DNA from: an uncultured Victivallales bacterium
GTDB lineage: Bacteria > Verrucomicrobiota > Lentisphaeria > Oligosphaerales > JAFGRS01
Assembly (NCBI GenBank): GCA_903834675.1
Contig: CAILKC010000474.1
Coordinates: 1-25,950, forward strand
Direction: 5' to 3'
Length of the DNA: 25,950 bases
Part shown: positions 963-16,007 of the stretch, piece by piece
Layout: the number at the start of each line of letters is the position of its first letter
How positions within the stretch are numbered: the stretch's first letter is position 1
The notes under the pieces: model-generated
Databases searched by the model: none
What the model was told of the DNA's origin: nothing
What the model saw: only the letters and a program-made list of their open reading frames with translations
Translations under genes and position numbers: made by a program

Positions 963-1781
963 ATGCAGACTTACATGGCCAGCATCGCCCGCTACCCGCT
1001 CATCACCAAGGATCGGGAGGCGGCACTGGCTCGGCGCATCGCCGCCGGCGATGAGGGGGCACGCGATGAACTGATCTGCGCCAACTTGCGGTTGGTCGTC
1101 AAGATCGCCCACGATTACAGAGGGCGTGGACTGCCGCTGGAGGATCTCGTCTCAGAGGGAAACAGCGGCCTGGCACGGGCCGCGGACCGCTTCGACCCAG
1201 CCAAGGGCGCCAAGTTCAGCACCTACGCATCCTGGTGGATCAAGCAATCGATGCGCCGCGCCCTGGCCAATCAGTCCCGCACCATCCGCGTACCGCTGCA
1301 GGCGCAGAGCAAGATGGCGCTGATTCGCCGGACGGAAGACGCATACTCCCAGGAAGGCGCTGGCGTCCCCACGGATGCGGAACTGGCCGCTCGTAGCGGC
1401 CTCAGCGAACAGACCGTCTCGATGCTGCGCACATCGTACGTCCGCCTGGTCTCCCTGGACGCCCCGTTGAGTGAGGGGAACGACAGGCGGGGTGCCGATC
1501 TCATCGCCGATCCGCAGGCTCCGGACCCGGCGCAAGGGATGAAGGAACGCGAGGCGCGCGCCTGGCTCGGCGCCTCGCTTCGCCGGCTACCCGAACGGGA
1601 GCGCTGCGTCATCGCCTACCGTTTCGGCCTGGCCGGCAGGAAACCACAGACACTCGACCAGCTCAGTCGGACGATCGGACTTACCCGCGAACGCGTCCGG
1701 CAGATTCAGAACGAAGCCCTCGGCACGCTGCGCGGCCTGTTGACTGCCGGCGAGGATGCCGAAGCGCGCCTCAGCGCGTAG
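963..1781 (+). CDS. RNA polymerase sigma factor, sigma-70 family (RpoD-like, group 2)
   Basis: A 272-residue sigma-70 factor directing RNA polymerase to promoters. Region 2 spans about residues 33-110: the core-binding part reads DELICANLRLVVKIAHDYRGR and DLVSEGNSGLARAADRFDP; the -10 melting/recognition part is FSTYASWWIKQSMRRALANQ followed by SRTIRVP. Region 3 is about 112-190. Region 4 is about 205-262, with the -35 helix-turn-helix TLDQLSRTIGLTRERVRQIQ. Region 1.1 is absent and the protein is much shorter than a primary RpoD, so it is an alternative (group 2-like) factor. Region 2.2 reads EGNSGLARA where EGNIGLMRA is usual, a mild divergence. GAAGG lies 8 bases before the ATG. It is unlinked to housekeeping genes here and may serve the accessory genes, which is untested. 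Confidence 0.95.
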   Translation: MQTYMASIARYPLITKDREAALARRIAAGDEGARDELICANLRLVVKIAHDYRGRGLPLEDLVSEGNSGLARAADRFDPAKGAKFSTYASWWIKQSMRRALANQSRTIRVPLQAQSKMALIRRTEDAYSQEGAGVPTDAELAARSGLSEQTVSMLRTSYVRLVSLDAPLSEGNDRRGADLIADPQAPDPAQGMKEREARAWLGASLRRLPERERCVIAYRFGLAGRKPQTLDQLSRTIGLTRERVRQIQNEALGTLRGLLTAGEDAEARLSA

Positions 1782-2246: not shown

Positions 2247-2900
2247 ATGCCACTGACCAACCCCTATCGCGACGGTAGCTCGTACCACGTGCTCTTCCAG
2301 ACGCTCATGGACGCCGATGGCGTCACGGAAGAGCATTTGAGGCACGCCGTCTGCAAGTCCATTCACAAGGCCGAGTACCTGGCCGGGAACGACGTGAAGG
2401 TGGTGCTGTCGCCGCGCCGGGAGCTGCACGGGCGGATGGCGGACGTCCGCGGCAGCTACGCGGCCCAGGGACACCTCTACTACGCGGAACAGGACGCCGC
2501 AGGCATCTGGCGGGTGTTCCCATGCGTCCCCCCCATGAGCAAGCGTGAGCGCGAGGCGCCGGGCGACGGCCCCAGGACACTCCGCCAGCGCGGCTGTGAC
2601 GTCGCAGTCGGCGACTACCGGTTCTACGCCCGCAGTGTCCCGGAGCTCTTCGAGAGGACGCTCTCCTATCTGCAGGAGAACGGTCATCTCGACCGCTTGC
2701 CGGAGGGGACCTTGCCGTTCCCACGCGGCAAGAAGCGCTACCTCATCGCGTGCGAGCCGAGGCACCGGGATGGGGACGACTTCACCAGCCCCGTCCGAGT
2801 CGGCAGCTACGTCATGGAGGCACACCGGGACTACGACAACGCCTGCAGCCAGCTGGCGGAATTCCTCGCGGTCTGCGGCGTCGCATTCAACGCATCATGA
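2247..2900 (+). CDS. Unrecognised domain family, free copy A (217 aa)
   Basis: A soluble 217-residue protein with AAGGAG about 8 bases before the ATG. It is the first of three homologues in this window (others: 8745-9413 and the C-terminus of the gene at 10113). Shared signatures in order: LTNPYRDGSSYH and FQTL.DADGVT at the N-terminus; VVLSPR at about 52-57; a central ADVRGSYAAQGHLYYAEQD.. then WRVFP at about 66-92; a variable basic linker (about 95-112); then a second half with RGCDVAVGDYRFYARSVPEL, GHLDRLPEGTLPF, KRYLIA and finally QLAEFLAVCGV.F. The repeated plan (strand-rich N half, linker, strand/helix C half) suggests two subdomains. I know no named family for it and do not assign chemistry. 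The small membrane protein precedes it by 16 bases. Confidence 0.85.
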   Translation: MPLTNPYRDGSSYHVLFQTLMDADGVTEEHLRHAVCKSIHKAEYLAGNDVKVVLSPRRELHGRMADVRGSYAAQGHLYYAEQDAAGIWRVFPCVPPMSKREREAPGDGPRTLRQRGCDVAVGDYRFYARSVPELFERTLSYLQENGHLDRLPEGTLPFPRGKKRYLIACEPRHRDGDDFTSPVRVGSYVMEAHRDYDNACSQLAEFLAVCGVAFNAS

Positions 2901-3047
2901 GAAGGGTGACACCGCGATTCGGGCTGACGCAGCCGAGACCGCGGGGGTGCCCACTGGATCCACCTGGCCGCGGCGCAGGAAGGTCGGCCCCCGAGGACCC
3001 CGAGGGGAGAGGTCGGGCCGGCAGCCCTGTGATCTGCCCCCATGGCC

Positions 3048-4433
3048 TCAGCGTAACCGGGCGAGCACCGCCTCAGCACCGATCAGTTCGACGCCGTTCA
3101 CGGGCGCGACGCGGTCGTCAGCATGGAAGATCACCGGCACCAGGCGCCGCCCGGCCGCCCCGGGGAACTGCCGGATCTTCGCCAGAAGTCTGGCCGCAAT
3201 GGCCTGTTCTTGGCCGCGGATGGCCAGCTTGACCTCGCCCACCAGCAGGGCGGTGCCGTCCAGGCTGGTCGCCACCACATCCAACTCCAGCGCTTTGCGG
3301 TCCAGTCCGGGGCCCCACCAGCGCGACGGTTTCCCCCAAATCTGTCCGGCTACGTCGTTACCCGTCACCGCCTGGCGGCAGAGACATTCCCAGATGCCGC
3401 CGACATGCTGCCCCCAGCCCAGGCGAACCGCTTCGCATACTGGCTCCAGGCGACGGGCTTCCAACACCGAGCGGTTCGGCTCGACAAAGCGGTACCAGAA
3501 CGCCAGGAAGGGGTCAGCGATCCGGTAGAGCGAGCGCTTGCTGTCGCGCTCTGCGACCCCCCACGGCGTCTCCCGCACGATCAACCCGAGGTCCGCCAGC
3601 ACATGCAGCGGCCGCGAGAGCGCGGTGGCCGGCTTGCCCAGGCGCGCCGCCAACTCCGAGACGCGCTGGCAGCCCTGGCCGACCAGTGACAGCAGGGAGT
3701 TGGCCTGGACGCTGTCGCGCAGGTCATCGGCCAGCAGCCGTTCCGGCTCCTGGTACAAGACGCCCAGCGGGTCCAGCACCAGCGCTCGCATTGCCTCCCA
3801 CGTGTCCGCAAAGGGCTGCGCCAGCTCCCAGTAGCGCGGGATGCCGCCCCAGAGCGCATAGGCATCCAGGACCTGGCGCGCTGAGGTCAGCCCCAGTGCC
3901 TCGCCCAGCCAGGCTGCCCCCAGTGGCCGGAGGCGCAGGATCTCCCGCGCGCGTCCATAGAGCGGGGCATCGGTAGCCAGCACCAGCCCATGCATCATCC
4001 GTTGCGACGAACCGCAGACCACCAGATGCACCGGCTTGGCGCCGCCGCCGTCCAGGCTCTTCTGCAGCAGTCCAGGCAACTCGGGGCTGGTCGCCACCAG
4101 AAACGGAAACTCGTCCAACGCCAGGACCGTGCCTGGCGGGGCGTCGGCCCGCCAGCGCGCCAGCAGCGCCTCCCAGTCTGGGTACTGCACGCGGTCGAAA
4201 CCCGGCAGCAGGACGGCAAGCACCGTGGCCAGCGCCCGGCGCTGGATGGCCGCCTCGCGCAGGTCGCTGCAGTAGTATCCGCCCGCGGCCTGCGCCCCCA
4301 GCGCCTCCAGCAGTAGGCGCGACTTCCCCGTGCGCCGACGGCCGTAGACGCAGGCGAACGTGCCCGTCTCCGCCGCAAACGCCCGCCGCAGCCGCGTCAC
4401 CTCCTCCTGGCGATCCAGAAACGGCAGTGCCAT
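3048..4433 (-). CDS. ATPase with C-terminal PD-(D/E)XK-like domain (archaeal-type ATPase/DUF234 family)
   Basis: A 461-residue P-loop ATPase. Start is ATG 4433, with GGAGG five bases upstream; the longer frame to 4445 would need a TTG overlapping that site. Walker A is GRRRTGKS (31-38) and Walker B is LALDEF (104-109). About 220-300 is a winged-helix-like region (VSELAARLGKPATALSRPL). The C-terminal third has the DUF234-type arrangement ELDVVA (383-388) and VGEVK (398-402), matching the E/D...ExK core of PD-(D/E)XK nuclease folds. Family members are widespread, poorly characterised AAA+-like NTPases often found in mobile or defence regions. The gene is convergent with the 2247 gene. It could be a standalone NTP-dependent nuclease or regulator; the fold call is firm, the role is not. 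Confidence 0.85.
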   Translation of the reverse strand: MALPFLDRQEEVTRLRRAFAAETGTFACVYGRRRTGKSRLLLEALGAQAAGGYYCSDLREAAIQRRALATVLAVLLPGFDRVQYPDWEALLARWRADAPPGTVLALDEFPFLVATSPELPGLLQKSLDGGGAKPVHLVVCGSSQRMMHGLVLATDAPLYGRAREILRLRPLGAAWLGEALGLTSARQVLDAYALWGGIPRYWELAQPFADTWEAMRALVLDPLGVLYQEPERLLADDLRDSVQANSLLSLVGQGCQRVSELAARLGKPATALSRPLHVLADLGLIVRETPWGVAERDSKRSLYRIADPFLAFWYRFVEPNRSVLEARRLEPVCEAVRLGWGQHVGGIWECLCRQAVTGNDVAGQIWGKPSRWWGPGLDRKALELDVVATSLDGTALLVGEVKLAIRGQEQAIAARLLAKIRQFPGAAGRRLVPVIFHADDRVAPVNGVELIGAEAVLARLR

Positions 4434-4461
4434 ACCGGCCTCCAAAGATTATACCGTCAGC

Positions 4462-4486
4462 GTATTATGTTGCAGATGTATAATAC
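4462..4486. promoter_or_regulatory. AT-rich inverted repeat upstream of the ATPase gene
   Basis: GTATTAT (4462-4468) and ATAATAC (4480-4486) are perfect 7-bp inverted arms around an 11-base spacer, in a short AT-rich island within very GC-rich DNA. It lies 29 bases upstream of the ATPase ATG (minus strand). A TATAAT on the minus strand (4448-4453) is too close to the ATG unless the mRNA is leaderless; TATTAT within the right arm would give a leader of about 40 bases. No clear -35 box. A promoter/operator is the simplest reading. Confidence 0.35.
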
Positions 4487-4560
4487 TCCAAAAGCGGCGG
4501 CGCCGCAAACCCGTCTCGGCGTCGCCCCCGAGCGCCAGGCCGGCGGCCACCGCTCCTCCA

Positions 4561-4772
4561 GGCGCGGTTCCCCTGGAGGGCGAGTGGCCTCGCGAGCCGC
4601 CGCGCGCCCCCAGACGCGGTTCCCCTCCTGTGAAACACGAAGCTCGCGGGGTGCAGAGCCCCCGTGGACGCTCGCGCTCCAGTGGCGGTCCGCTGTTTCG
4701 TCCTGACATGATCGGGCGGCACTGCGCCCGCTTGGTGCTGGAGGGCGAGTGGCCTCGCGAGCCGCCGCGACC
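4561..4772 (+). repeat. Two partial copies of a dispersed GC-rich repeat
   Basis: A module with CTGGAGGGCGAGTGGCCTCG, followed by CGAGCCGCCGCG, occurs at about 4573-4604 and again at about 4739-4769. The first copy is preceded by GGCGCGGTTCCC and followed by a second CAGACGCGGTTCCCC. The same words make up the tandem array at 6949-7148. No open frame in 4434-4819 looks like a real gene: the apparent frames simply read through these repeats. Confidence 0.7.
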
Positions 4773-4819
4773 AGCGGGAGCGGGTCCCATGGCAGCGGCG
4801 CGATGGCCGCCTGCCCCCA

Positions 4820-5650
4820 TCAGCCGGCAACCGCGGCCCGCAGTCGGGACACGGTCCGCTCGACCATCGCGGCGTTCAGCTCAAGGCCATGGGCTCGGCC
4901 AATGTCAACAGCTTCGAGGACTCCCGGCGCGCTCTCGTGGCCGAACTGGTGTTCGAGTTGCCCAGCGGCATCATGGTACCACTTCCGGACGATAGCCGCG
5001 CGCAGTCCGACCGCCTCCTGCGCCATACGCTCCATCGCGTTTCGGAAGACCAACGCGACGTCGTAAATGTAGTAGGAATCCTTGTCACGTTTCTCCTGGC
5101 CGCGGCGTTGCCGACGAACCAGGCACTTCTGCAGCACGTAGGAGACGGGATTGGGGATGGAGATCGGCAGAGTCTCGGTTACGTCCAGGCCGGGTATCTG
5201 GGCGAGATCGACTGACCATGGGTTCACCAGGAGCATATCGACGTAATCGAGCCCTTCGGCCGTCGTGCCCGGCTGTATCTCCACCAAGGCCGGACGGCGA
5301 AGCCGGGTTTCCTTCGGCAGGCCCGTGAGGGGGCAGAGTATCTCGATGGACTCGTTGCTCTCTGGGGTAAGCCGGTACTTGTTTGCCGGCCGATCAGAGG
5401 GTACGGCGACCAGTCCAAGGCGAGTCAGTTGGTCGTGCAGCGTTGGTACCTTGGGAAGTCCGCGGACAGACGCGACAAGGTCCGCGTCCAGAGTCAGCAG
5501 CGGCCTGGGGGATGGGTTTGCGCTGGCCGGATGGTGACGAAACAGGGCGCTCGCACTCCCGCCAACCAACACGACGCGCGGACCGTATGGAGCCACCGCC
5601 CGGGCCACCCGGACGAGGATATCGTCGAAAGCCGCACTAATCAGAGCCAT
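4820..5650 (-). CDS. Nucleotidyltransferase-fold protein, AbiEii-like toxin candidate
   Basis: A 276-residue protein. Start is ATG 5650, with GGAAGGA five bases upstream; a TTG at 5665 is a less likely alternative. VVLVGGSASALF (27-38) followed by LTLDADLV (52-59) matches the GG(S/A)...DxD core of DNA-polymerase-beta-type nucleotidyltransferases, with E103 (SIEILCP) a candidate third metal ligand. The middle and C-terminal parts (VSYVLQKCLVRRQRRGQEKRDKDSYYIYD) resemble AbiEii/AbiGii-type proteins, where a KDxxDIxx-like segment follows the core. It overlaps the upstream gene by 10 bases, so the two are translationally coupled. In known AbiE systems the nucleotidyltransferase toxin follows its DNA-binding antitoxin in this order. 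The fold is fairly sure; the toxin role is inferred from the pairing. Confidence 0.75.
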   Translation of the reverse strand: MALISAAFDDILVRVARAVAPYGPRVVLVGGSASALFRHHPASANPSPRPLLTLDADLVASVRGLPKVPTLHDQLTRLGLVAVPSDRPANKYRLTPESNESIEILCPLTGLPKETRLRRPALVEIQPGTTAEGLDYVDMLLVNPWSVDLAQIPGLDVTETLPISIPNPVSYVLQKCLVRRQRRGQEKRDKDSYYIYDVALVFRNAMERMAQEAVGLRAAIVRKWYHDAAGQLEHQFGHESAPGVLEAVDIGRAHGLELNAAMVERTVSRLRAAVAG

Positions 5651-6714
5651 CGTAGTCCTTCCCAATGCGGCGACAGGACCCGGTCAAAGACCTGCTGGGC
5701 CTGCTCTCTCCCGCGGGCGGGGTCGAAATAGAGATCGAGGTACACCTGGAGTACGTCGGCAAGCCGCAGGCCCTCGTGATCCACGCTCCCGCCGAAAACG
5801 GACTCCGTCGCCTGCGGGCAAACGAGGGAGAAGGTGTCTTTGCCAGTGCTGGACGCCACCAGGTCCAGGCGCTCCAGCGCCGCGTCAATCTTGCGGACAA
5901 ACACGCGGGCACTGTCCGCGGTGCTTCCCCCAAGGCCCAAGGCATGGGCCGCGAGATGTCCGCTGACAGCGACCCCGTCGCACCCCCGGAGGCGCCGCAC
6001 CACATCGTGGATGTTCTCGCCCGGGTAGAGTGACGACACCCGCAGCGCCGGGTCTGGGTGGTTGAACCGATGGTAGGCCCAGCACTCGACCAACTGTGGT
6101 ATCCGCTGCAGCCGCAGCCCCCCCGCAGCGCGCACCAGATAGCCTTCCGCTTCCGCCAGCGCGGCGAACCGCGAAGCCGAAGGCTGAGGCTTGCTGGACA
6201 GCTCAGCCAGGTGACTGATGCCCAACACCCCGCCACGTGACTGCGGCCCTCCCCAGTACTTCGGCTCCATGCCGTCCAGAAGCAGGATCTTCAGGAACCA
6301 CTGATGGTTCGGCGAGAACAGACTCCCGGCGTGCGCCTGAGGCTGGCCCAGGCCGCGCTGCGGTCGCACACGCGAAGCCCCCATGGTCGTGCACTGCCCG
6401 CCTGCATAGACAAAGCCCTTGCCACCCTCGTCGGCAATCACACACCTCAACTCGGGCAGAAAGCGCTTCGCGTACTCACCCACAACCGCCGCAGCGCTCG
6501 GCGAGAATCGCCGCAAGAGAACAGCCAGAGCCGACGGTGGCGACCCGGCGTCGGCCTTGCCGGCCCGCAGAATGAAATCCGCGAGCGCCCCGCGCAGGGC
6601 ATCCTGGCGATACGCCCCCATTGACAGGGCCACAACACCCGATGCCTTGACGTCCGGGAAGTGAACCAGGGCAAGCTCGACCAGGCGCTGTATCTTCTCT
6701 CTGTCTGCTCTCAT
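5641..6714 (-). CDS. AbiEi-like winged-helix regulator/antitoxin candidate
   Basis: A 357-residue protein. Start is ATG 6714, with AAGGA six bases upstream; the open frame extends a further 12 codons to 6750 without support. About residues 165-205 (GISHLAELSSKPQPSASRFA then ALAEAEGYLV) look like a winged helix-turn-helix in which KPQPSASRF is the recognition helix. The C-terminal half follows the AbiEi-type order: a VAVSGHLAAHALGL segment, strands, and near the end LRLADVLQVYLDLYFDPARG, close to the PLQTYLDL...GRG signature of AbiEi-family proteins. AbiEi antitoxins repress their own operon through inverted repeats, and a strong palindrome lies in the promoter here. The N-terminal 150 residues are unusual and unassigned. 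The family call is by eye and moderately sure. Confidence 0.6.
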   Translation of the reverse strand: MRADREKIQRLVELALVHFPDVKASGVVALSMGAYRQDALRGALADFILRAGKADAGSPPSALAVLLRRFSPSAAAVVGEYAKRFLPELRCVIADEGGKGFVYAGGQCTTMGASRVRPQRGLGQPQAHAGSLFSPNHQWFLKILLLDGMEPKYWGGPQSRGGVLGISHLAELSSKPQPSASRFAALAEAEGYLVRAAGGLRLQRIPQLVECWAYHRFNHPDPALRVSSLYPGENIHDVVRRLRGCDGVAVSGHLAAHALGLGGSTADSARVFVRKIDAALERLDLVASSTGKDTFSLVCPQATESVFGGSVDHEGLRLADVLQVYLDLYFDPARGREQAQQVFDRVLSPHWEGLRWL

Positions 6715-6797
6715 TCGCCGTCCTTGACCTTCACGGCCCGCCATCGCCATCCTGACTGCGGCAGCCGCCGAACCACAACCTCACTCGCCCTGACCTC

Positions 6798-6825
6798 AGT
6801 ATACTCGTGTTCACGAATATATCAA
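6798..6825 (-). promoter_or_regulatory. Promoter with embedded operator for the AbiE-like pair
   Basis: On the minus strand TTGATA (6825-6820) and TATACT (6803-6798) are separated by 16 bases, a good sigma-70 promoter with the start codon about 85 bases downstream. Between and across the boxes lies a 22-bp near-palindrome (6800-6821): arms TATACTCGTG and CACGAATATA match at 9 of 10 positions around a TT centre. A repressor bound here would block RNA polymerase, as expected for an autoregulated antitoxin. Confidence 0.6.
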
Positions 6826-6948
6826 TGCGCATGGATTTGCGGATGCAGTGCCTCCCAGGTTCCTGAAGGCAGTAGGCCAGTTTCATCCCCGACTCGCGCC
6901 ATGCCTCCGACCAGGAGACCGGATCCTGCGCATTGACCTGATCCTGGA

Positions 6949-7148
6949 AGAGCTCCTGCTGAGCCGCCGCGACCCCAGACGCGGTTCCCCTGGAGGGCGA
7001 AGCTCCTGCTGAGCCGCCGCGCGACCCCAGGCGCGCTTCCCCTGGAGCGAAGCTCCTGCTGAGCCGCCGCGACCCCAGACGCGGTTCCCCCGGAGGGCGA
7101 GTGGCCTCGCGAGCCGCCGCGCGACCTCAGGCGCGCTTCCCGTGGCAG
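6949..7148 (+). repeat. Tandem array of four 50-bp units
   Basis: Four units of 50 bp start at about 6949, 6999, 7049 and 7099. Units 1-3 begin AGCTCCTGCTGAGCCGCCGC; unit 4 begins GTGGCCTCGCGAGCCGCCGC. Their second halves alternate: units 1 and 3 carry CCCCAGACGCGGTTCCCC, units 2 and 4 carry TCAGGCGCGCTTCCC or its CCCAGG variant, so the array may be two 100-bp periods. Unit 4's opening is the word also present at 4583-4604 and 4748-4769. There are no unique spacers, so it is not CRISPR. Low-complexity reading frames through it are artefacts. Confidence 0.8.
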
Positions 7149-7205
7149 CCGAGTGGTGGCCGCCCGCCCACTGTGCCTGGAGGCACCTTTCGGCAGCGCC
7201 GGGGA

Positions 7206-7233
7206 TTGACACCCCCACGACGACGCTTACAGT
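7206..7233 (+). promoter_or_regulatory. Candidate promoter ahead of the ADP-ribosylglycohydrolase locus
   Basis: TTGACA (7206-7211), a 16-base spacer and TACAGT (7228-7233, four of six consensus bases) face the plus-strand locus. The resulting leader of about 330 bases (to 7571) contains no gene or riboswitch I can support. Long leaders are uncommon, so a nearer unrecognised promoter is equally possible. Confidence 0.25.
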
Positions 7234-7571
7234 CAGTACTGCCAGGCAGGACCGTGGGGTACGGTGGGCGTACGCCGGTGCAGGAGACAGGAGAGCCAGG
7301 CGCCGACAGTGTTCCTCGGGGCGTGTGCGGGGATGGGACTCAGACGTGGGGAAAGCGCGGAGGGCCGTGTACCCCGGACAGGTTTTGGCCGGGATGCGCG
7401 CCTATCAGTAATGGCGGCATCGTCTGGGTTGCCCGCGCTGCACCAGGGACGGCGTGTCAGCCTGGCCCCTGGGGCCACGAATGGATTGTCCCGGCTCGGA
7501 CTCTCCAGGCGTCGGCGCAGAGGGGTAGGGAGGCTGAGCAGGAAGGTTGGGCAAGCAAGAGGGGCATCGGC

Positions 7572-8678
7572 ATGTCGTCGGACCAGACACTTGCAGAACT
7601 CTTCGCCAAAGGGCTACTGCCCATCCACCAAGGCGCGATCTTCCAGCAGGCGCTGGCGCCGAATCCGGCGGCGCACCTTCCCGACCGCGTCGCCGGCATG
7701 CTGCTCGGCATGGCGGTCGGGGACGCCCTCGGCAACACCAGCGAGGGCATGCTGCCCCATGAACGGCGCCAGGCTCATGGCGAGATCACGGACTACCTGC
7801 CTAACCGCTACGCACAAGACCAACCCGTTGGCCTGCCGTCCGACGATACCCAACTCGCCTTCTGGACCCTCGAATGTCTGCTGGCCGATGGCGGTCTCGA
7901 CCCCGACCATGTGGCCCGCGCCTTCACCTCCAACGGCAGGATCTTCCATCGGGGGAAGACGGTTCGCACATTCTGTAGCAACTACAAAAAGCTGGGCCTG
8001 CCGTGGTACGAAGCCGGCCCCGAGTCCGAGAGCAATGGCGCGCTGATGCGTATCGCCCCGGTCGTCATTCCGCATCTTCGGAACGGCGGCCCCGGCCTCT
8101 GGGCTGACGTGGCCTGCGCCGCGGTGATCACGCATCGTGGCAGTATGTCCATCGCCTCCTGCATTGCCTTCTGCGGCCTATTGGCAGACCTCATGCGGAT
8201 GACCGCGCCGCCGCCGTCCGAATGGTGGGTGGAGCGCTTTGTCGAACTGGCCGGTCCTTTGGAAACCACCCGCTACAGCCCGCGCGGCGGCGCCTACGCG
8301 GCTTTCAGCGGGACCATCTCGGAGTTCATCACCGCAGTTATCCCTGCCGCGCTTCGGGATAACCTCTCCTCCGTGGCGGCCTGCGACCGCTGGTACTCCG
8401 GCGCCTACTTGATGGAGACTGTCCCCTCGGTCCTGTACATCCTGGCTCGCCACGGGCACGACCCGGAGCAGGCCATCGTCCGCGCCGTCAACGACACCAA
8501 AGACAACGACACCATCGCCGCCATCGTCGGGGCCGCGGTCGGCGCCTTGCACGGCCAGGGCGCCCTTCCCGCCCGCTGGCTCGCCGGCCTCAGCGGCCGC
8601 ACCCGCGTCCGCGCCGGAGACCAGGGCCGAGTGCAGGAACTGGTGGCGGAGGCATCGCGTGAGGACTGCTGGCGATGA
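7572..8678 (+). CDS. ADP-ribosylglycohydrolase (ARH/DraG family)
   Basis: A 368-residue enzyme predicted to cleave the N- or O-glycosidic bond of ADP-ribose, reversing ADP-ribosylation. The start at 7572 (MSSDQTLAEL) has GAGGGG upstream; the open frame reaches back to 7101 but that part reads through the repeat array and has no family character. Family landmarks: GMLLGMAVGDALGNT (42-56), SDDTQ (90-94, metal-binding DDT), SNGALMR (154-160), a THRG segment (187-190), and near the end NDTKDNDTIAAIVGAAVGA (307-325), matching the usual GGDxDT metal motif with KDNDT in its place. Length is normal. The two-metal ligands D91, D92, D311 and D313 appear intact, so it should be active. It heads the plus-strand locus: the 220-aa homologue follows after 66 bases. 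Its natural substrate is unknown. Confidence 0.92.
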   Translation: MSSDQTLAELFAKGLLPIHQGAIFQQALAPNPAAHLPDRVAGMLLGMAVGDALGNTSEGMLPHERRQAHGEITDYLPNRYAQDQPVGLPSDDTQLAFWTLECLLADGGLDPDHVARAFTSNGRIFHRGKTVRTFCSNYKKLGLPWYEAGPESESNGALMRIAPVVIPHLRNGGPGLWADVACAAVITHRGSMSIASCIAFCGLLADLMRMTAPPPSEWWVERFVELAGPLETTRYSPRGGAYAAFSGTISEFITAVIPAALRDNLSSVAACDRWYSGAYLMETVPSVLYILARHGHDPEQAIVRAVNDTKDNDTIAAIVGAAVGALHGQGALPARWLAGLSGRTRVRAGDQGRVQELVAEASREDCWR

Positions 8679-8744
8679 CATGCTCTCGGAGCGTTCGGAA
8701 CCCCGTAGCCTAGGACGTTGTGACCCAAAGGAGGAGGCACGCAG

Positions 8745-9413
8745 ATGCAGCTGAGTAACCCCTACCGCAAGGGAGGATCATACCACCTGGTGTTCCAGAC
8801 GTTGCTTGACGCTGATGGAACCACCGTGGCTGAATTGCGGGACGTGATCGTGCGACGGATGCCGGAGAAGGCAGACTACCAGGCGGGCAACGACATCAAA
8901 GTCGTGCTCACTCCCCGCAAGGGGTCGCCGGAGGACCAACCGGACGTCCGCGGTCACACCTCAGCAAAGGGGCACCTGTACTACGCTGAAAAGGACCCTG
9001 CCAGCCGTTGGCGGGTCTTCCCGCGAACCCCACCAATGAAGCCGCGTGGTCGCGGTGAGGGAAGAGGGAGCGAGCGGCCCCGTCAGCGCGGTATCGATGT
9101 CCGGGTCGGGGACCGCCAGTTCCATGCTCAGAATGTCCCGGAACTGTGCGAAGCCGCCCTGACGTACCTCATCCGAGATGGCCACATGGCCCGCCTGCCG
9201 CCGGGTACCATACCATTTGCGACCAGCAGTAAACGGTATCTGATTGCGCGCGAGCCAAAGCATCAGCACGGCGTGGATTTCTCCTGCGCTGTACACGTTG
9301 GGGACTACTACATCGAGGTCCAAAAGGACTACGCTCGCGCGTGTTGCCAGCTCGCGAAGTTTCTCGCCGTCTGCGGCGTGTCGTTCAAAGAACTCCAAGA
9401 GCGGCCCACATGA
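8745..9413 (+). CDS. Unrecognised domain family, free copy B (222 aa)
   Basis: A 222-residue homologue of the 2247 gene product and of the last 218 residues of the 10113 gene product. AAAGGAGGAGG precedes the ATG. It keeps LSNPYRKGGSYH, FQTLLDADGTT, VVLTPRK, KGHLYYAEKD then WRVFPR, a basic linker rich in G and R (about 100-112), RGIDVRVGDRQFHAQNVPEL, GTIPFATSSKRYLIA, and QLAKFLAVCGVSF. The ELHGR segment of copies A and C is replaced by GSPEDQP, so B is the most divergent of the three. Only the linker and the far C-terminus differ in length. The conserved H of GSYH, the YYAE run, the GD of VGD and the KRYLIA segment are the best candidates for functional residues. Function unknown; position suggests it works with the glycohydrolase upstream. 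Confidence 0.85.
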   Translation: MQLSNPYRKGGSYHLVFQTLLDADGTTVAELRDVIVRRMPEKADYQAGNDIKVVLTPRKGSPEDQPDVRGHTSAKGHLYYAEKDPASRWRVFPRTPPMKPRGRGEGRGSERPRQRGIDVRVGDRQFHAQNVPELCEAALTYLIRDGHMARLPPGTIPFATSSKRYLIAREPKHQHGVDFSCAVHVGDYYIEVQKDYARACCQLAKFLAVCGVSFKELQERPT

Positions 9414-9474
9414 GTAGGGTATGCGAGAGTGCCGTGCGCGACCCCAGAACGCGGCCGAAACGCTGACACCCGGA

Positions 9475-9905
9475 TCAGGCGGCTTCATCCACACCGAGCA
9501 CCGATTCATCGTCGAGCAGGCCGTCGCAGATTGCTTCCATACGCAGGCTGCCCAGTTCGTCGAAAGCCGCCAGTCTGGACGAGGTAGCTACAGGCATGGC
9601 GGACGACGCCCCTCATACAACACCCGCACCAGATGGCCGCCATCTTGTGGCCCTGACGGCTGGGGATGGGCCGCCGGAACCCCTGCCGCAGGCAGCGTGC
9701 GCCGTCGCGCTCCAGATGGTCGTCGGGTTGGCCACGGAGGATGTCGCCCGTTCCAGCCGGACTGGCATCACGGATCAGAGTGGCGAGTTGCGGATAGACC
9801 GTCTGCCGGCTATGTATGTCCCGTGCAGTTTGTGCCGGCAGGCAGGCATCGGCGACCTGGGCGTGCCGTAAAGGCGGGCACTCTGGGCCGCGCTCCGGCC
9901 GGGCT
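9475..9905 (-). pseudogene. Possible decayed minus-strand gene between copy B and the large nuclease gene
   Basis: The minus strand has coding-like stretches in different frames. One reads ARDIHSRQTVYPQLATLIRD and PDDHLERDGARCLRQGF; a shorter frame reads DGGHLVRVLYEGRRPPCL to a stop; a third, starting ATG 9597, reads SRLAAFDELGSLRMEAICDG and DDESVLGVDEAA to TGA 9475 (40 residues). Third-position G/C bias supports former coding, and frame changes would be needed to join the pieces. I recognise no family. The last piece could instead be a genuine 40-residue protein, but its ribosome site is weak. The remainder of 9414-10112 shows nothing else supported. Confidence 0.3.
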
Positions 9906-10112
9906 GGTCAGGTCTGTAAGTGTATCGTGCAAGCTCTGACTGCGGGGCTGACGCCGCCGTTCCAGTAGTCAAACGAGGTGGCTGTTGACGACCGGGAAGG
10001 TAGAGTGGCCGTTCGATGCCACTGCTGATGCCCCGTCCACAGTGCCCGACTCCGAGTCCGCGGGGTAGCGCCCAGAGACGGCTCAGGCACACAAGCCAAA
10101 GGAGGACTGTAC

Positions 10113-13100
10113 GTGGAGGTCACCAAAGAGACCCTGGGGCGGTTGTTCAGTGACCAGCGCGTCTATATCATTCCGGTGTTCCAGCGCGAGTACGTGTGGA
10201 GCAGGGACGACCAGTGGGAACCATTTGCGAACGACCTGTTCGACAAAGCCAAGCAGTTGATCGAGGCGGAAGCGAACCGGCAGCCTATCGCCCATCACTT
10301 CTTCGGCCCGATCGTCGTCAAGGCCCTGGACGTTGCAGTGATGGCTCTGCCTCGGTACGAAGTCGTGGACGGGCAACAGCGCCTGATCACCTGCCAGATC
10401 TTCCTGAGAGCGCTGAGCCATGCCCTTCTGGATCTGGGTGTCCACGGGCAAGAGGACTTGGCGACTCTGATGAGGAATGCAGGGAGGGCTTCCGACAGCG
10501 AAGATCACTTCAAGATCCAGCCATCGCATCGCGACCAGGAATCATTCCGTCGGACCATGGGAGCAGAACGCAGCATCCCGGCGCAACCGCGCATTGAATT
10601 AGGCACCCTCGGCCAGTGTTATTGGTTCTTCCGTGACGCTATCGCCGGGTTCCTGGCGACGGGTGCAGGCGGCACGGACCTGTCTGCCGACGCACGGAAC
10701 AAGCGCGCCCAGGGGCTCCTGACGGCGGTCTACTGGGCTACGTTTGTCTGCATCGGGCTCGACAGGAATGAGCCCGAAACGGAAGTGTTCGAGGCCCTGA
10801 ACGGCCGCGGCGAGCCCCTGCTGGCCAGCGACCTGATACGCAACCTCGTGTTCCGCGCGGCCGTCAGCGTGGAGTTCTCACCTGCAGAACAGCTTACCCT
10901 CTACGAAGCGTACTGGGAGGATTTCTCGTCCCGCAGAGACCCTGACGACAGCGATCAGTACTTCTGGCATCAGCCCGGGACGAAGGGCACAGCACGGATC
11001 GAGCAGTTCTTCATGCATTTCCTCCAGTGCCGGAAAGTCTCGAACGCGGAAATACGTGTCGCGGACTTGCTGACGGTGTTCCGGGGCTGGTGGGAGGACG
11101 ATGACTGGAAAGAGAGGCGGTCGAGGGAACTCGTCAAGGGCCGATTGCAGTTGATCCGCGAGCAGGCCTTGGTTTACTCATCGTTCTACGAGTTGCCGGC
11201 CGACCTGGATGAGTTTGCTCCTTTCTTTCTCCGTATCCGCGAACACGACCAATCGACGGTCTACGCCGTGCTTCTATACCTCTTCGGGACGGCACTGCCT
11301 GGGGGGTGTGTTACCAAGCAGGATCTCGTGCTCATTTGCGGGATGATCGAGAGCTACCTGGTTCGCCGCTTCGTCTGCCGCATGTCGACGAACAAGTACA
11401 ACCACTTCTTTCTGGGCCTGGTCACCAAGCTCCACGAAATGACCCAGATCACTGCAGCAGCGTTCCAGCAGACATTGGCCTTGGACAAGAACGAGAGCAT
11501 GCTCTGGCCCAGCGACGACGAGTTCCGACGCCACTGGGACACCGAGCAACTCTATGCCGCCGGCAACCGCCGCAAGACCCTCCAAGCGATGCTCTCCGCC
11601 ATCGACCAGAAGCTGCAGCCGGCCTTTGGCGAGGACGTGACCGTTCGGTACCACGCTCTGACAGTCGAGCACGTTCTGCCCCAGCAATGGGAAACGAACT
11701 GGCCGCTGGGAGAACTCACAGGGGGCGTCCGAGAGCGCTTCCAGCCAGGAACGAGCGATCGCGAGATCAGAGGAACCCTCCTGCACAGCATCGGCAATCT
11801 GACCTTGCTGACGCAGAAGCTGAACACGAGCATGAAGAACGCTTCCTATGCGGACAAACGCGAGAAGATCTTCGCACATAGTTCACTGCCGCTCAACAAG
11901 TACTTCCAGAAGCGCGACTCGTGGAACGAGGAGGCCATTCTCCAACGGGCTGACACGCTGTTCTGGACAGCGCTCAGGCTCTGGCCGGGACCGCGAGATC
12001 CCCGACCCGCTGAACCCGAGGTACCGCCGGGGGAGCAGCTGAGAGTGCCCACACCAGCACCAACCGAGGCGGGTACCGACAGAGGGATTGAAGGCGGTGG
12101 CGCGGCCCCGCCGGTCACTCCCGAACAGCGGCAGGAGATGGTGGGGCTCCTGACCGGCGTGCCGGACGACAAGAGTCTGCAGCGTGTTCTGGAGCGGGAA
12201 GCAGAGATTCTCCAGCTTCTCCGCAGTGACCCGAGCCTGGTGAAGGAAAACGGTGAGCCCTTCTTCTGGAAGGCCGTATTCGCAGGCCATGTCCCCTGGG
12301 TGAAGTGGCTCGTGGAGAAGGCGGGTTTGGAGCTGACCGAGATCCCCAACCCTAGTGACATGAGGTCGGGCAGTGCCCACCACAGCGACCTGAACCGCGA
12401 CGGAGACCCTACTTGGTGCCTCGGCCCGCTCTTCGCCTCGCCAACGGCGCTGGAGTTGCTTCCTTGGCTGCTCAAGGCAGGTCACAAGCTTGATCGCTTT
12501 GGGACAGGGCTACTGACTGGGGCAGTACTCAACGGAACTCCTGAGCAGATATACTGGCTGCTGGAGCAACGCGTTGAGACCGACTATGTCACCGCCATGA
12601 ATGGCATCGATTACACCCCTTTGTCCGCTGCCATCATCGTGCGTGAGGACATGGAACTGGCCAAGCGGCTTATCGACCGAGGCGCCTGCATCGACCAGTT
12701 CGTGGAACACGATCCTGACCCTGATTATCACCTTTGTGGCTACCCATCGCCGCTGTGCATGGCCGCGAGACGTGGCATGGATGATTTCGTCGACCTTCTC
12801 ATCGAACGGGGGGCCGAGCTCAGTCTGGACGACGACGATCGACTCGACGAGGTCGCGCCGGTCGAGGCTGCAATCCAAGGCCGGCAGATGCAGACTCTGC
12901 GGAAGCTGCTTGCGCACCGACCCGACCTCGGTCCCCGCGAGTGGGCGCACCTGGCCCGTGGGGGCTATCCGGAGAGCACACCTCTGGGATGGGCCGTCAA
13001 GGAAGAAGACCCCGAACTCGTAGAACTGATGCTCGAATGCGGAGCCATGCCCTGGCACACAGATCTGCCCCTCGACATGTCTGCTCTGGCCTTGGCCAGG

Positions 13101-13865
13101 AAACTCGGAAACAGTGAGATCATCAAGTTGCTGGAGGAGGCACTTGAGAAGACTGTGGTAACCGACGCGCCCGTCGACACTCCCCCTAAGGAGTCCCCCG
13201 CTCCTCCATTGACCAACCCTTACGGCAAGCAGAGCGGCTCCTATCATCTTATCTTCCAGGCGCTGCTGAACGCCGACGGCGTCACTTTCGATGATCTGAT
13301 GAACATGATCGTGCAGAAGCAGGGGAAGGAACCTCACCAGGCAGCAGCCAGCGTTACAGTGGTGCTCTCACCCCGCAAGGAACTGCATGGTCGACTGAGG
13401 GATCTTCGGGGCAGCCTTGCGGCCCAAGGCCACCTCTACTACGCGGAACAGGACGCGGCGGGCCTCTGGCGCGTGTTCCCCCGGGTGCCAGTTTTGCCGC
13501 CCTATCCCCCTCGTGCGGGTGGCGGCGGGCAAGATGATGGCCACCGACGCGGCATCGACGTACAGGTAGGGGACTGCCAGTTCCATGCACCAAGTGTCCC
13601 GGAACTGTGCAAGGGGGTTCTGGCATACCTTGTAAAGGGCGGCCATCTGGACCGTCTGCCACTGGGAACTCTACCCTTCGCCACCAGCAAGAAACGCTAC
13701 CTGATTGCGCGCCGGCAGAACCACCCGCACGGCGAGAGGTTCTCCGCCCCTGTCACGGTCGGGGGCTACTTCATGGAAGCCGACCATAGCTACCAGGATG
13801 CGTGTAGTCATCTTGAGAAGTTCCTTGCCGTGTGCGGCGTCGGCTTCGAGGTTCTCGATGCATGA
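10113..13865 (+). CDS. DUF262-DUF1524 (GmrSD/SspE/BrxU-like) nuclease fused to ankyrin repeats and the unrecognised domain (copy C)
   Basis: A 1250-residue protein starting at GTG 10113, with AAAGGAGG seven bases upstream. The N-terminal DUF262 has IPVFQREYVW (20-29), FFGPIV (63-68) and EVVDGQQRLIT (83-93), the nucleotide-handling motif of GmrS-type proteins. DUF1524 follows at about 510-610, with TVEHVLPQQW (517-526) and IGNLTLLTQKLN (560-571), a His-Asn nuclease core. Known relatives (GmrSD, BrxU, SspE) cut or nick modified phage DNA. After a proline-rich linker (about 640-680) come degenerate ankyrin repeats, about 715-1015 (for example YTPLSAAIIVREDMELAKRL, PSPLCMAARRGMDDFVDLLI, STPLGWAVKEEDPELVELML). 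Residues 1033-1250 are a full homologue of the 2247 and 8745 products, beginning at exactly the same LTNPY. The downstream gene overlaps its stop (ATGA). Confidence 0.88.
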   Translation: MEVTKETLGRLFSDQRVYIIPVFQREYVWSRDDQWEPFANDLFDKAKQLIEAEANRQPIAHHFFGPIVVKALDVAVMALPRYEVVDGQQRLITCQIFLRALSHALLDLGVHGQEDLATLMRNAGRASDSEDHFKIQPSHRDQESFRRTMGAERSIPAQPRIELGTLGQCYWFFRDAIAGFLATGAGGTDLSADARNKRAQGLLTAVYWATFVCIGLDRNEPETEVFEALNGRGEPLLASDLIRNLVFRAAVSVEFSPAEQLTLYEAYWEDFSSRRDPDDSDQYFWHQPGTKGTARIEQFFMHFLQCRKVSNAEIRVADLLTVFRGWWEDDDWKERRSRELVKGRLQLIREQALVYSSFYELPADLDEFAPFFLRIREHDQSTVYAVLLYLFGTALPGGCVTKQDLVLICGMIESYLVRRFVCRMSTNKYNHFFLGLVTKLHEMTQITAAAFQQTLALDKNESMLWPSDDEFRRHWDTEQLYAAGNRRKTLQAMLSAIDQKLQPAFGEDVTVRYHALTVEHVLPQQWETNWPLGELTGGVRERFQPGTSDREIRGTLLHSIGNLTLLTQKLNTSMKNASYADKREKIFAHSSLPLNKYFQKRDSWNEEAILQRADTLFWTALRLWPGPRDPRPAEPEVPPGEQLRVPTPAPTEAGTDRGIEGGGAAPPVTPEQRQEMVGLLTGVPDDKSLQRVLEREAEILQLLRSDPSLVKENGEPFFWKAVFAGHVPWVKWLVEKAGLELTEIPNPSDMRSGSAHHSDLNRDGDPTWCLGPLFASPTALELLPWLLKAGHKLDRFGTGLLTGAVLNGTPEQIYWLLEQRVETDYVTAMNGIDYTPLSAAIIVREDMELAKRLIDRGACIDQFVEHDPDPDYHLCGYPSPLCMAARRGMDDFVDLLIERGAELSLDDDDRLDEVAPVEAAIQGRQMQTLRKLLAHRPDLGPREWAHLARGGYPESTPLGWAVKEEDPELVELMLECGAMPWHTDLPLDMSALALARKLGNSEIIKLLEEALEKTVVTDAPVDTPPKESPAPPLTNPYGKQSGSYHLIFQALLNADGVTFDDLMNMIVQKQGKEPHQAAASVTVVLSPRKELHGRLRDLRGSLAAQGHLYYAEQDAAGLWRVFPRVPVLPPYPPRAGGGGQDDGHRRGIDVQVGDCQFHAPSVPELCKGVLAYLVKGGHLDRLPLGTLPFATSKKRYLIARRQNHPHGERFSAPVTVGGYFMEADHSYQDACSHLEKFLAVCGVGFEVLDA

Positions 13866-15400
13866 GAGTCGCGGTCTATGGCGGCAGCTTCAGTCCGGTT
13901 GGCAACCACCATATCACTTTGGTCCGGGCGTTGCTGGTAACTGGGCGCTACGACCGGGTGGTGGTGGTGCCGAATGGCGACGGCTACGGCAAGGCCGGCC
14001 TGGCGTCCGAAGGGCACCGGCTGGCCATTTGCCGTCTGGCGTTTGCGGAGATGCCCGCGGTAACGGTGTCCGATCTCGAGACTGGCTTGCCGCCGGGTGA
14101 AGACGCCGCCCGCGATGCGGACACGGTGGAAGCCTTGGCCAGGCAGTTCCCCGGGGCCGTCTTCGACAGTGTCCGCGGCGCCGATACTCTGGAGAGGCTA
14201 CTCGGCTTCGGCACCTACGAGCGCCTGCGGGACGCGGTGCACTCATTTGTGGTGGTCCCGAGACGGGTCGGTCACCGCACGGTCACGCTTGGCAGCGTCG
14301 TGCCGGGCCTCAAGCCCAGAAAGCGCCGCCGGTACGAACAGGATGCTGGGAGATTCGTGGCGCTAGACCTGGGCATTGTGTCCGATGGCTCAAGCACCGC
14401 GGTGCGGCGCCGGGTCGCGAAGGGCGATCTGATCAACGACCTGGTGCCCGCGGCGGTGGCTGAGTATATCCGCGACCACGGGCTATACCGAGATGCGCCC
14501 GCCGCAGACGACAGACCGAAGCGACAGAACCAGGGACCTCGGCCGCTCACCGATCCGCGCCAGGTCGTCTTGCGGCATCGCCCGAGGAACAACAGCTACA
14601 TCCTGGATGCCGATGCCAACGGCCTGTACTGGTGCGCTCGTTTCGATGCCACGGTCGGCACGGGCACTGCGACAAAGCGGTTCGAGCCGGACAGCGGCAA
14701 CGATGTGGCCGGACAGGAGGAACGCTGGCGTACGCTCTGTGCGACCGGTAGCATCCCAGACCCCGGGCGACGGGTGCGTATCAGTGTCTCCTCCCGGAGC
14801 CGCGATGGGTATGCGGGCCTGAGCCCGTTCGCGATGCGGCCAGGCGGTTTCCCTGTCCCCGGCCTCCTGGGGAGCGATAAGACTCCCGTTCGCGCCCACA
14901 GTGTTGAGAACGCCTGGCAGGGGCTGAAGTGTTACCCTGACGGCCACCCTGAACCGTTCACCGATCTGGTCACCTACGCGGGCGCGTCACTTAAGCTTAG
15001 AGCGTGGCTGCGGCATCTCGACCGCAGCGATCTGGCCGCCCAGCGGCACCGGTATTGGGTCCATGGCCGCCTGACGGACGACAAGGCTGAAGCCGTGTTC
15101 CTCAACTACTTCCCGATGTACATCTGGTGCATCGAGACGTTTGAGGCGGAGTACCTCGACCGGCTGGCGCAGTTGGGCCAAGAGAAGGTGGTGTGGCTTT
15201 GGGACACCGACAGCAGCGAGGACATCTCCCAGGACGAGGCCTTCTCGCACGCCGCGTTCCTGGTGCACTACCTGAACGGGGACTGGTTCGACTTCTACCG
15301 GCAGTTCTGGCCAGCGGCCGGCGAGTGTGTCGAGGACTGGCTGGCGCAGCTCCCGGAGCCCTACCGCTCGCAGTTGCCGGCGCTGCTCCGGCCACGCTGA
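13862..15400 (+). CDS. NMN/NaMN adenylyltransferase-like protein fused to an unrecognised C-terminal domain
   Basis: A 512-residue protein whose ATG overlaps the previous stop codon (ATGA at 13862-13865), so translation is coupled. Residues 1-210 are a nucleotidylyltransferase of the NadD/NMNAT type: VAVYGGSFSPVGNHHITL (3-20) corresponds to the phosphate-binding GGSFxP...(H/T)xxH loop, and DGSSTAVRRRV (175-185) to the SxTxxR motif. The loop reads GNHH, so the first His/Thr is Gly, while the last His is kept; activity may be altered. The end EYIRDHGLYR is typical of NadD. Residues about 225-512 form a second domain with GLSPFAMRPGGFPVPG (319-334), AHSVENAWQGLK (345-356), FLNYFPMYIW and DTDSSEDISQDEAFSHAAFL. 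The SPF...SxExxxQxxK spacing recalls the NADAR/YbiA layout, a tentative eye match only. Confidence 0.75.
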   Translation: MRVAVYGGSFSPVGNHHITLVRALLVTGRYDRVVVVPNGDGYGKAGLASEGHRLAICRLAFAEMPAVTVSDLETGLPPGEDAARDADTVEALARQFPGAVFDSVRGADTLERLLGFGTYERLRDAVHSFVVVPRRVGHRTVTLGSVVPGLKPRKRRRYEQDAGRFVALDLGIVSDGSSTAVRRRVAKGDLINDLVPAAVAEYIRDHGLYRDAPAADDRPKRQNQGPRPLTDPRQVVLRHRPRNNSYILDADANGLYWCARFDATVGTGTATKRFEPDSGNDVAGQEERWRTLCATGSIPDPGRRVRISVSSRSRDGYAGLSPFAMRPGGFPVPGLLGSDKTPVRAHSVENAWQGLKCYPDGHPEPFTDLVTYAGASLKLRAWLRHLDRSDLAAQRHRYWVHGRLTDDKAEAVFLNYFPMYIWCIETFEAEYLDRLAQLGQEKVVWLWDTDSSEDISQDEAFSHAAFLVHYLNGDWFDFYRQFWPAAGECVEDWLAQLPEPYRSQLPALLRPR

Positions 15401-15476: not shown

Positions 15477-16007
15477 ATGCCAAACGAGTCCAACCAGGAG
15501 ATCCGACGCATGTTCCGCCAAGTCAAACTACCCGCAGGCGTTCCTGGGAGGCTGTTGCTGCACAGCATGCCTGGATGTTTCGAAACGCTCGAGCAGGTCT
15601 GGGAACACATCCGCACCAAGGGCGTGCAGTTCATCGTCAACCTGGCTCAGGCAGGCGAGACGCGGCGGAAGTCGCCCGCCTATGCCAAAGCACTGCTGAG
15701 CGGCCACGTGCCGTGTCCAGTCATCTCCTTTCCGGTGAAGGACTGCGGGACACCGCGCAGCCGGGAGGCATTCTGGGAGCTCGCTTTCGACCTGGCTCAG
15801 CGACTCAATGCCGGCGAGCGAATCCTCGTCCACTGTGCGGCCGGGGTCGGTCGAACGGGCTCCCTGGCGACGTGCATCCTGATCGCGCTCGGGGAAACGC
15901 CGGCGGCGGCCGCCGAGGCCGTCTGGGACGCCGGGTCCCAACCGGAGACCGACGGACAGATGGAACTGGTCGCCTGGTGTGCAGCACGGCGGGACGCCGG
16001 CCGCTGA
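15477..16007 (+). CDS. Dual-specificity/tyrosine-type phosphatase (CX5R)
   Basis: A 176-residue soluble phosphatase. GAGGAGG lies seven bases before ATG 15477. The signature loop is HCAAGVGRTG (119-128), with nucleophile C120 and phosphate-binding R126. PVKDCGTP (87-93) supplies D89 as a likely general acid. The short size, lack of extra recognition loops and KYxxL-free N-terminus place it with dual-specificity or cyclin-dependent-kinase-inhibitor-like phosphatases, which in bacteria may act on proteins, nucleotides or RNA ends. It lies 76 bases after the NMNAT-like gene on the same strand and is probably the last gene of that locus. Within an NAD/ADP-ribose context a small-molecule substrate, such as a phosphorylated ADP-ribose product, is conceivable, but nothing in the sequence decides this. 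Confidence 0.88.
   Translation: MPNESNQEIRRMFRQVKLPAGVPGRLLLHSMPGCFETLEQVWEHIRTKGVQFIVNLAQAGETRRKSPAYAKALLSGHVPCPVISFPVKDCGTPRSREAFWELAFDLAQRLNAGERILVHCAAGVGRTGSLATCILIALGETPAAAAEAVWDAGSQPETDGQMELVAWCAARRDAGR

Follow-up and report, generated by a model that had tools for sequence, protein, structure and literature searches.

X is an element that occurs three times in a 25,950-nucleotide contig of an uncultured Victivallales bacterium (CAILKC010000474.1; this whole stretch is the window below), twice as a free protein, X1 and X2, and once as the end of a GmrSD-type nuclease, X3 (Table 1). X consists of two modules joined by a variable linker, a predicted winged helix (N-module) and a second module of about 100 aa (C-module), and the C-module also forms part of restriction-type nucleases from both bacteria and archaea. 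The findings suggest that X is an exchangeable element that directs DNA-cutting or gene-regulating proteins to their sites of action.

An earlier note on this DNA had placed three homologous copies at positions that prove exact: pairwise BLASTP gives 55.6% identity for X1-X2 (E 7.7e-84), 56.3% for X1-X3 (E 9.3e-82) and 53.5% for X2-X3 (E 8.5e-79), all below E 1e-78. These full-length values do not clearly make X1 and X3 the closest pair, as the note had it, though the long identical DNA stretch that it saw in those two is present (26 nt, at 2472 and 13431). There is no fourth copy in the window by tblastn, the sole other match having an E of 0.5. The ratio of nonsynonymous to synonymous substitution rates (dN/dS) is 0.17-0.27 in six of six pairs among X1, X2, X3 and the copy in L001, a contig of a Victivallales metagenome-assembled genome (MAG), and the X copies have thus been kept as proteins, under purifying selection.

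The view of X as a single domain of 218 residues is ruled out by the divergence of the linker and by the separate occurrence of each part. Residues 96-111 are 19-40% identical among X1-X3, as against 53-61% in the flanking parts. A profile search of about 5.8 billion proteins returned 16 matches including X1 of the window: four other full-length relatives (P0004-P0007, with P0004 nearly identical to X2), two proteins that cover the C-half only (P0008 and P0009), and nine short ones (P0010-P0018, 126-175 aa) whose match is confined to the N-half. Because the search kept only proteins between 0.55 and 1.75 times as long as the query, an X query would miss other GmrSD-X fusions. Full-length X is present in one of the 288 genomes of the phylum, which is also the one case among the 47 genomes of the order; two further matches in the phylum are to the N-module only, and the N-module is found in 4 of the 288. 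G188, which the phylum search gave as the second match to the C-module (E 0.006), has a TAG within the matched frame and was dropped as weak. Among genome contigs, 2 of 35 stretches contained a relative; the viral contig scans gave none in 61 stretches (A1) and none in 23 (A3), but one in 4 (A4), and tblastn of P0002 and of P0015 found no match in 50,697 phage records. Full-length X is rare, and the C-module alone is more widespread.

The impression that X belongs to no named family was borne out, since profile scans gave no convincing membership: X1 and X2 have no match in Pfam (E<=1), PADLOC (E<=0.1) or NCBIfam (E<=1). In PHROGs, phrog_32890, an unnamed family without an assigned function, covers part of the C-half (E 3e-4 to 0.04). 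When 14 C-modules were compared with Pfam at E<=10, eight families matched one module each (best E 0.016), none convincingly, and SeqA (PF03925) was not among them. Sequence matches in the PDB to a nicking endonuclease (E 0.04), eL22, designed proteins, a twitching protein and urease were taken as chance.

The N-module has the predicted make-up of a winged helix, with a beta-hairpin wing after three helices. It also stands alone, in the short proteins (99.4% in a profile comparison of the N-half with that set) and in a 476-kb viral contig. Winged helices fused to nucleases are described in the abstract and section 29 of PMC11037411 as readers of N6-methyladenine.

The C-module leads to restriction nucleases. 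With the C-half of P0008 as query, nine proteins match: P0008 itself, P0004 and the set P0019-P0025. Within this set of seven, four have a precomputed HSDR_N domain, P0021 lies just under the HSDR_N Pfam cut-off, and the other two are shorter proteins without the N-terminus. The C-half aligns with the set of bacterial HSDR_N proteins (hhalign 99.9%, 115 columns) and the C-module with a haloarchaeal alignment (96%, 88 columns), and the bacterial C-module profile aligns with the last 100 residues of one haloarchaeal sequence (86%). The haloarchaeal HSDR_N protein P0026 was found through a weak full-length tblastn match of 21% identity. With HSDR_N-type carriers in both bacteria and haloarchaea, the C-module thus belongs to restriction-type nucleases of both domains. 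HSDR_N is not invariably its partner: P0029 has a C-module without it, and a tblastn match and inspection by eye suggest the same for P0031, from a Haloquadratum plasmid. P0030 is covered to at least 80% by seven plasmid records.

Four loci of such haloarchaeal genes were inspected. In the first, a DNA methyltransferase is annotated within 0.8 kb; the second has a TaqI-like specificity-domain gene 92 nt upstream and the third a type I R gene at a distance of 1.4 kb, and the fourth has none of these as a neighbour. In Haladaptatus salinisoli (L018, 3757-5092) the gene for a MarR-type regulator of 79 aa stops 7 nt short of the HSDR_N/C-module gene, so that a small winged-helix gene adjoins a C-module gene as though X were split. 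P0029 (275 aa) has a haloarchaeal-type C-module at its end and an N-terminus without a Pfam match, which we take to resemble a ribbon-helix-helix, as in SeqA.

A structure search with the C-module puts SeqA first, clear of the other rows and at a modest Z of 5.1-6.6, with no enzyme among the top rows. SeqA is described as a reader of hemimethylated Dam sites (PMC12707154), its GATC contacts being assigned to Arg116, Thr117, Arg118, Asn150 and Asn152 (PMC6225831).

The carrier of X3 scores well above the Pfam cut-offs for both nuclease domains, with 99.7 bits for GmrSD_N (DUF262; cut-off 33.2) and 97.1 bits for GmrSD_C (DUF1524; cut-off 23). The extra domains of GmrSD proteins given in section 12 of PMC4619093 are DUF4268, DUF4357 and DNA_binding_1, and an unnamed domain pair joined to GmrSD is new with respect to that list. 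The titles and abstracts listed in paper searches held no GmrSD protein with ankyrin repeats or a winged helix and no SeqA-like domain in restriction proteins, which does not prove their absence. A weak match of the ankyrin region to MzaA (E 0.03) reflects the shared ankyrin part and was rejected as an identification.

Table 1. Features of the window discussed in the text (percentages are identities to the L001 counterpart)
Feature	Position	Strand	Remarks
Sigma-70 family factor	963..1781	+	core gene; 79%
X1, free copy, 217 aa	2247..2900	+	N-module ~2247-2531, C-module ~2583-2897; within core common to L001
ATPase_2-DUF234 protein	3048-4445	-	PADLOC match to candidate defence family PDC-S27, E 1e-24
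NTP_transf_8 gene	4820-5665	-	
Open reading frame without Pfam match	5641-6750	-	
ADP-ribosylglycohydrolase (ARG)	7560..8678	+	PF03747, E 3e-57; 85.5%
X2, free copy, 222 aa	8745..9413	+	directly downstream of ARG; N-module ~8745-9029, C-module ~9081-9410
1250-aa protein: GmrSD_N, GmrSD_C, ankyrin repeats, then X3	10113..13865	+	Pfam PF03235, PF07510, ankyrin families
X3, fused copy, residues 1033-1250 of the 1250-aa protein	13209..13862	+	N-module ~13209-13490, C-module ~13542-13862
NMNAT-like and DUF6939 protein	13832..15400	+	cargo gene; PF01467, PF22075
PTP-type (rhodanese-phosphatase superfamily) phosphatase	15477..16007	+	core gene; 84%

The window and L001 share, in the same order, the sigma-70 factor, X1 (81%), ARG and the PTP-type phosphatase, and the position of X1 is conserved between them. 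The two loci differ in what lies between these genes. The X1-ARG interval is about 4.4 kb longer in the window, which has there the three minus-strand genes, and the ARG-phosphatase interval is 6.7 kb with X2, the GmrSD-ankyrin-X3 gene and the NMNAT-DUF6939 gene, as against 2.1 kb with a DUF3841 gene in L001. X2 and GmrSD-X3 are extra cargo beyond the shared core. The picture of a module both free and fused that swaps partners in a defence-like island stands. An ARPP-1 gene is a further feature of L001, and a complete gene for a ParB-N6/N4 methyltransferase (5010-6698) lies immediately upstream of its sigma gene; the window has only a 59-aa C-terminal remnant (692-859) of this methyltransferase. 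The start of ARG is set by the L001 homology, from 7560, the mechanical open reading frame (ORF) running from 7101. The sigma factor was not accepted as MzaA, a match that reflects the shared sigma-70 part.

Among the other neighbours, the product of 13832-15400 matches nicotinate-nucleotide adenylyltransferase models below their cut-offs, and its DUF6939 half has a sub-threshold match to NADAR-DarT1 (E 0.15). The nucleotide-binding HxGH motif reads GNHH in this protein. GC-rich repeats of about 32-95 nt, at 4534-4770 and 6951-7145, flank the minus-strand pair 4820-5665/5641-6750, which may form a mobile cassette similar to AbiE.

We tentatively favour, at somewhat under an even chance, a role for X as a two-module DNA-reading adaptor that aims the GmrSD nuclease in X3 and acts as a free DNA-binding regulator in X1 and X2. 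This reading starts from the two-module make-up, the separate distribution of the modules, the fusions to restriction-type nucleases, purifying selection and the position of X1. Both predicted folds are of kinds used for DNA binding, and among the proteins found the C-module is most often joined to a restriction-type nuclease; reading of DNA by X would be the simplest mechanism. The winged helix and the restriction-associated C-module would jointly select the DNA, and X3, lying C-terminal to the ankyrin repeats, would bring the nuclease to it. Free X1 and X2 would bind the same kind of site, and may regulate the island, shield DNA or compete for the nuclease's sites. More weakly, the C-module may read a modified or hemimethylated site. 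In a bolder and unlikely version, it would found a new SeqA-like class of DNA-mark readers for HSDR_N and GmrSD nucleases in bacteria and haloarchaea, X with its winged helix would be a double reader, and the free copies would read the same mark to control genes of the island.

The DNA-reading mechanism has its limits. Its weak step is the nature of the DNA mark, methylation being a candidate suggested by precedents in other winged helices and in SeqA. The likeness to SeqA has no sequence support, as hhalign of the C-module against SeqA gives 5.6%, 1.2% and 0.8%. The net charge of the C-part is +8 to +12 in X2, P0006 and P0007 and near zero in X1, X3 and the L001 copy, which makes it less likely that every copy binds DNA strongly.

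The main rival, possible though on balance doubtful, makes X a one-component transcription factor, with the winged helix for operator binding and the C-module as sensor of a small ligand such as ADP-ribose or another nucleotide, replacing the Nudix-helix-turn-helix (Nudix-HTH) or WYL-HTH regulators of published ARG-centred systems; in X3 the sensor would switch the nuclease on. In its favour, X belongs to the core next to sigma-70 and ARG in the two loci seen, some C-parts have the near-zero charge just described, and a Nudix or WYL regulator, though not obligatory, accompanies over 42% of the published ARG systems according to section 3.8 of PMC9503650, with no match to either among the 20 window ORFs scanned. 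A search of five intergenic stretches for inverted-repeat operators yielded no more than one 8-nt pair. Against this rival stand the C-module's other partners, HSDR_N nucleases without a winged helix, and structural rows that are SeqA-like rather than ligand-binding folds. The earlier proposal of a sensor, adaptor or effector can be narrowed to a DNA-reading or sensing part, because the HSDR_N-type nuclease is the commonest partner found for the C-module; no sign of a catalytic site was seen in that module.

X could also be a protein-protein docking module. X3 would then keep the nuclease within a complex, and the free copies X1 and X2 would bind X3's partner as immunity- or antitoxin-like brakes. 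Free and fused copies lie side by side in one island and ankyrin repeats adjoin X3, as docking would have it. The L001 genome cuts both ways, having X1 without any X3 found (one match): a brake would be purposeless without its nuclease, though this MAG is in many contigs and may be incomplete. As the winged helix and the SeqA-like rows point to DNA, docking seems quite unlikely. An enzymatic C-module, with its active site in the conserved EPxHPxGN loop, is very improbable. The invariance of H and G in the 17-row alignment speaks for it. Against it, no residues other than L, P, H and G are invariant there, the histidine is missing from one member (L020) of a fuller haloarchaeal set and the glycine from two (L019 and L020), and the top structural rows offer no enzyme.

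Readers of modified DNA are few, and the repertoire for N6-methyladenine in DNA is called "surprisingly limited" in section 29 of PMC11037411. As an unnamed module that ends restriction-type nucleases of bacteria and archaea alike, the C-module is a direct candidate for a further reader, or at least for a new target-choosing domain. For ARG-centred anti-phage islands, so far predicted only, it raises the possibility of a regulator and a restriction effector with one common reader.

Compared with known systems, X shares a C-terminal C-module with HSDR_N-type PD-(D/E)XK restriction proteins, which lack the winged helix and whose nuclease type is unlike GmrSD. The X3 carrier resembles GmrSD type IV restriction endonucleases in having both of their domains, and differs in the ankyrin repeats and X at its C-terminus. 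By description, X3 is like the N6-methyladenine-reading nucleases of PMC11037411 in joining a winged helix to a nuclease, and differs from those described there in that X has a second module. The C-module, whose predicted fold may resemble that of the C-terminal DNA-binding domain of SeqA (PF03925; PDB 1lrr, 3fmt, 3sk7) at the modest Z noted, is unlike it in sequence, Pfam matches and partner domains.

The gene set of the window as a whole resembles the ARG-centred anti-phage systems of PMC9503650, which in its section 3.8 are predicted to undo viral ADP-ribosylation and to have a stable core and variable modules, possibly including restriction nucleases, with a rhodanese-superfamily phosphatase coupled in a little over 55%. 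The window has the ARG domain, such a phosphatase (found in L001 as well), a restriction nuclease, genes related to NAD and ADP-ribose and variable cargo, and L001 adds ARPP; no ADP-ribosyltransferase or sirtuin was found among the 20 ORFs scanned, several of which have no assigned family. X is absent from the description in that section, and the window differs from the systems described there in having a sigma factor and X in place of the Nudix or WYL regulator.
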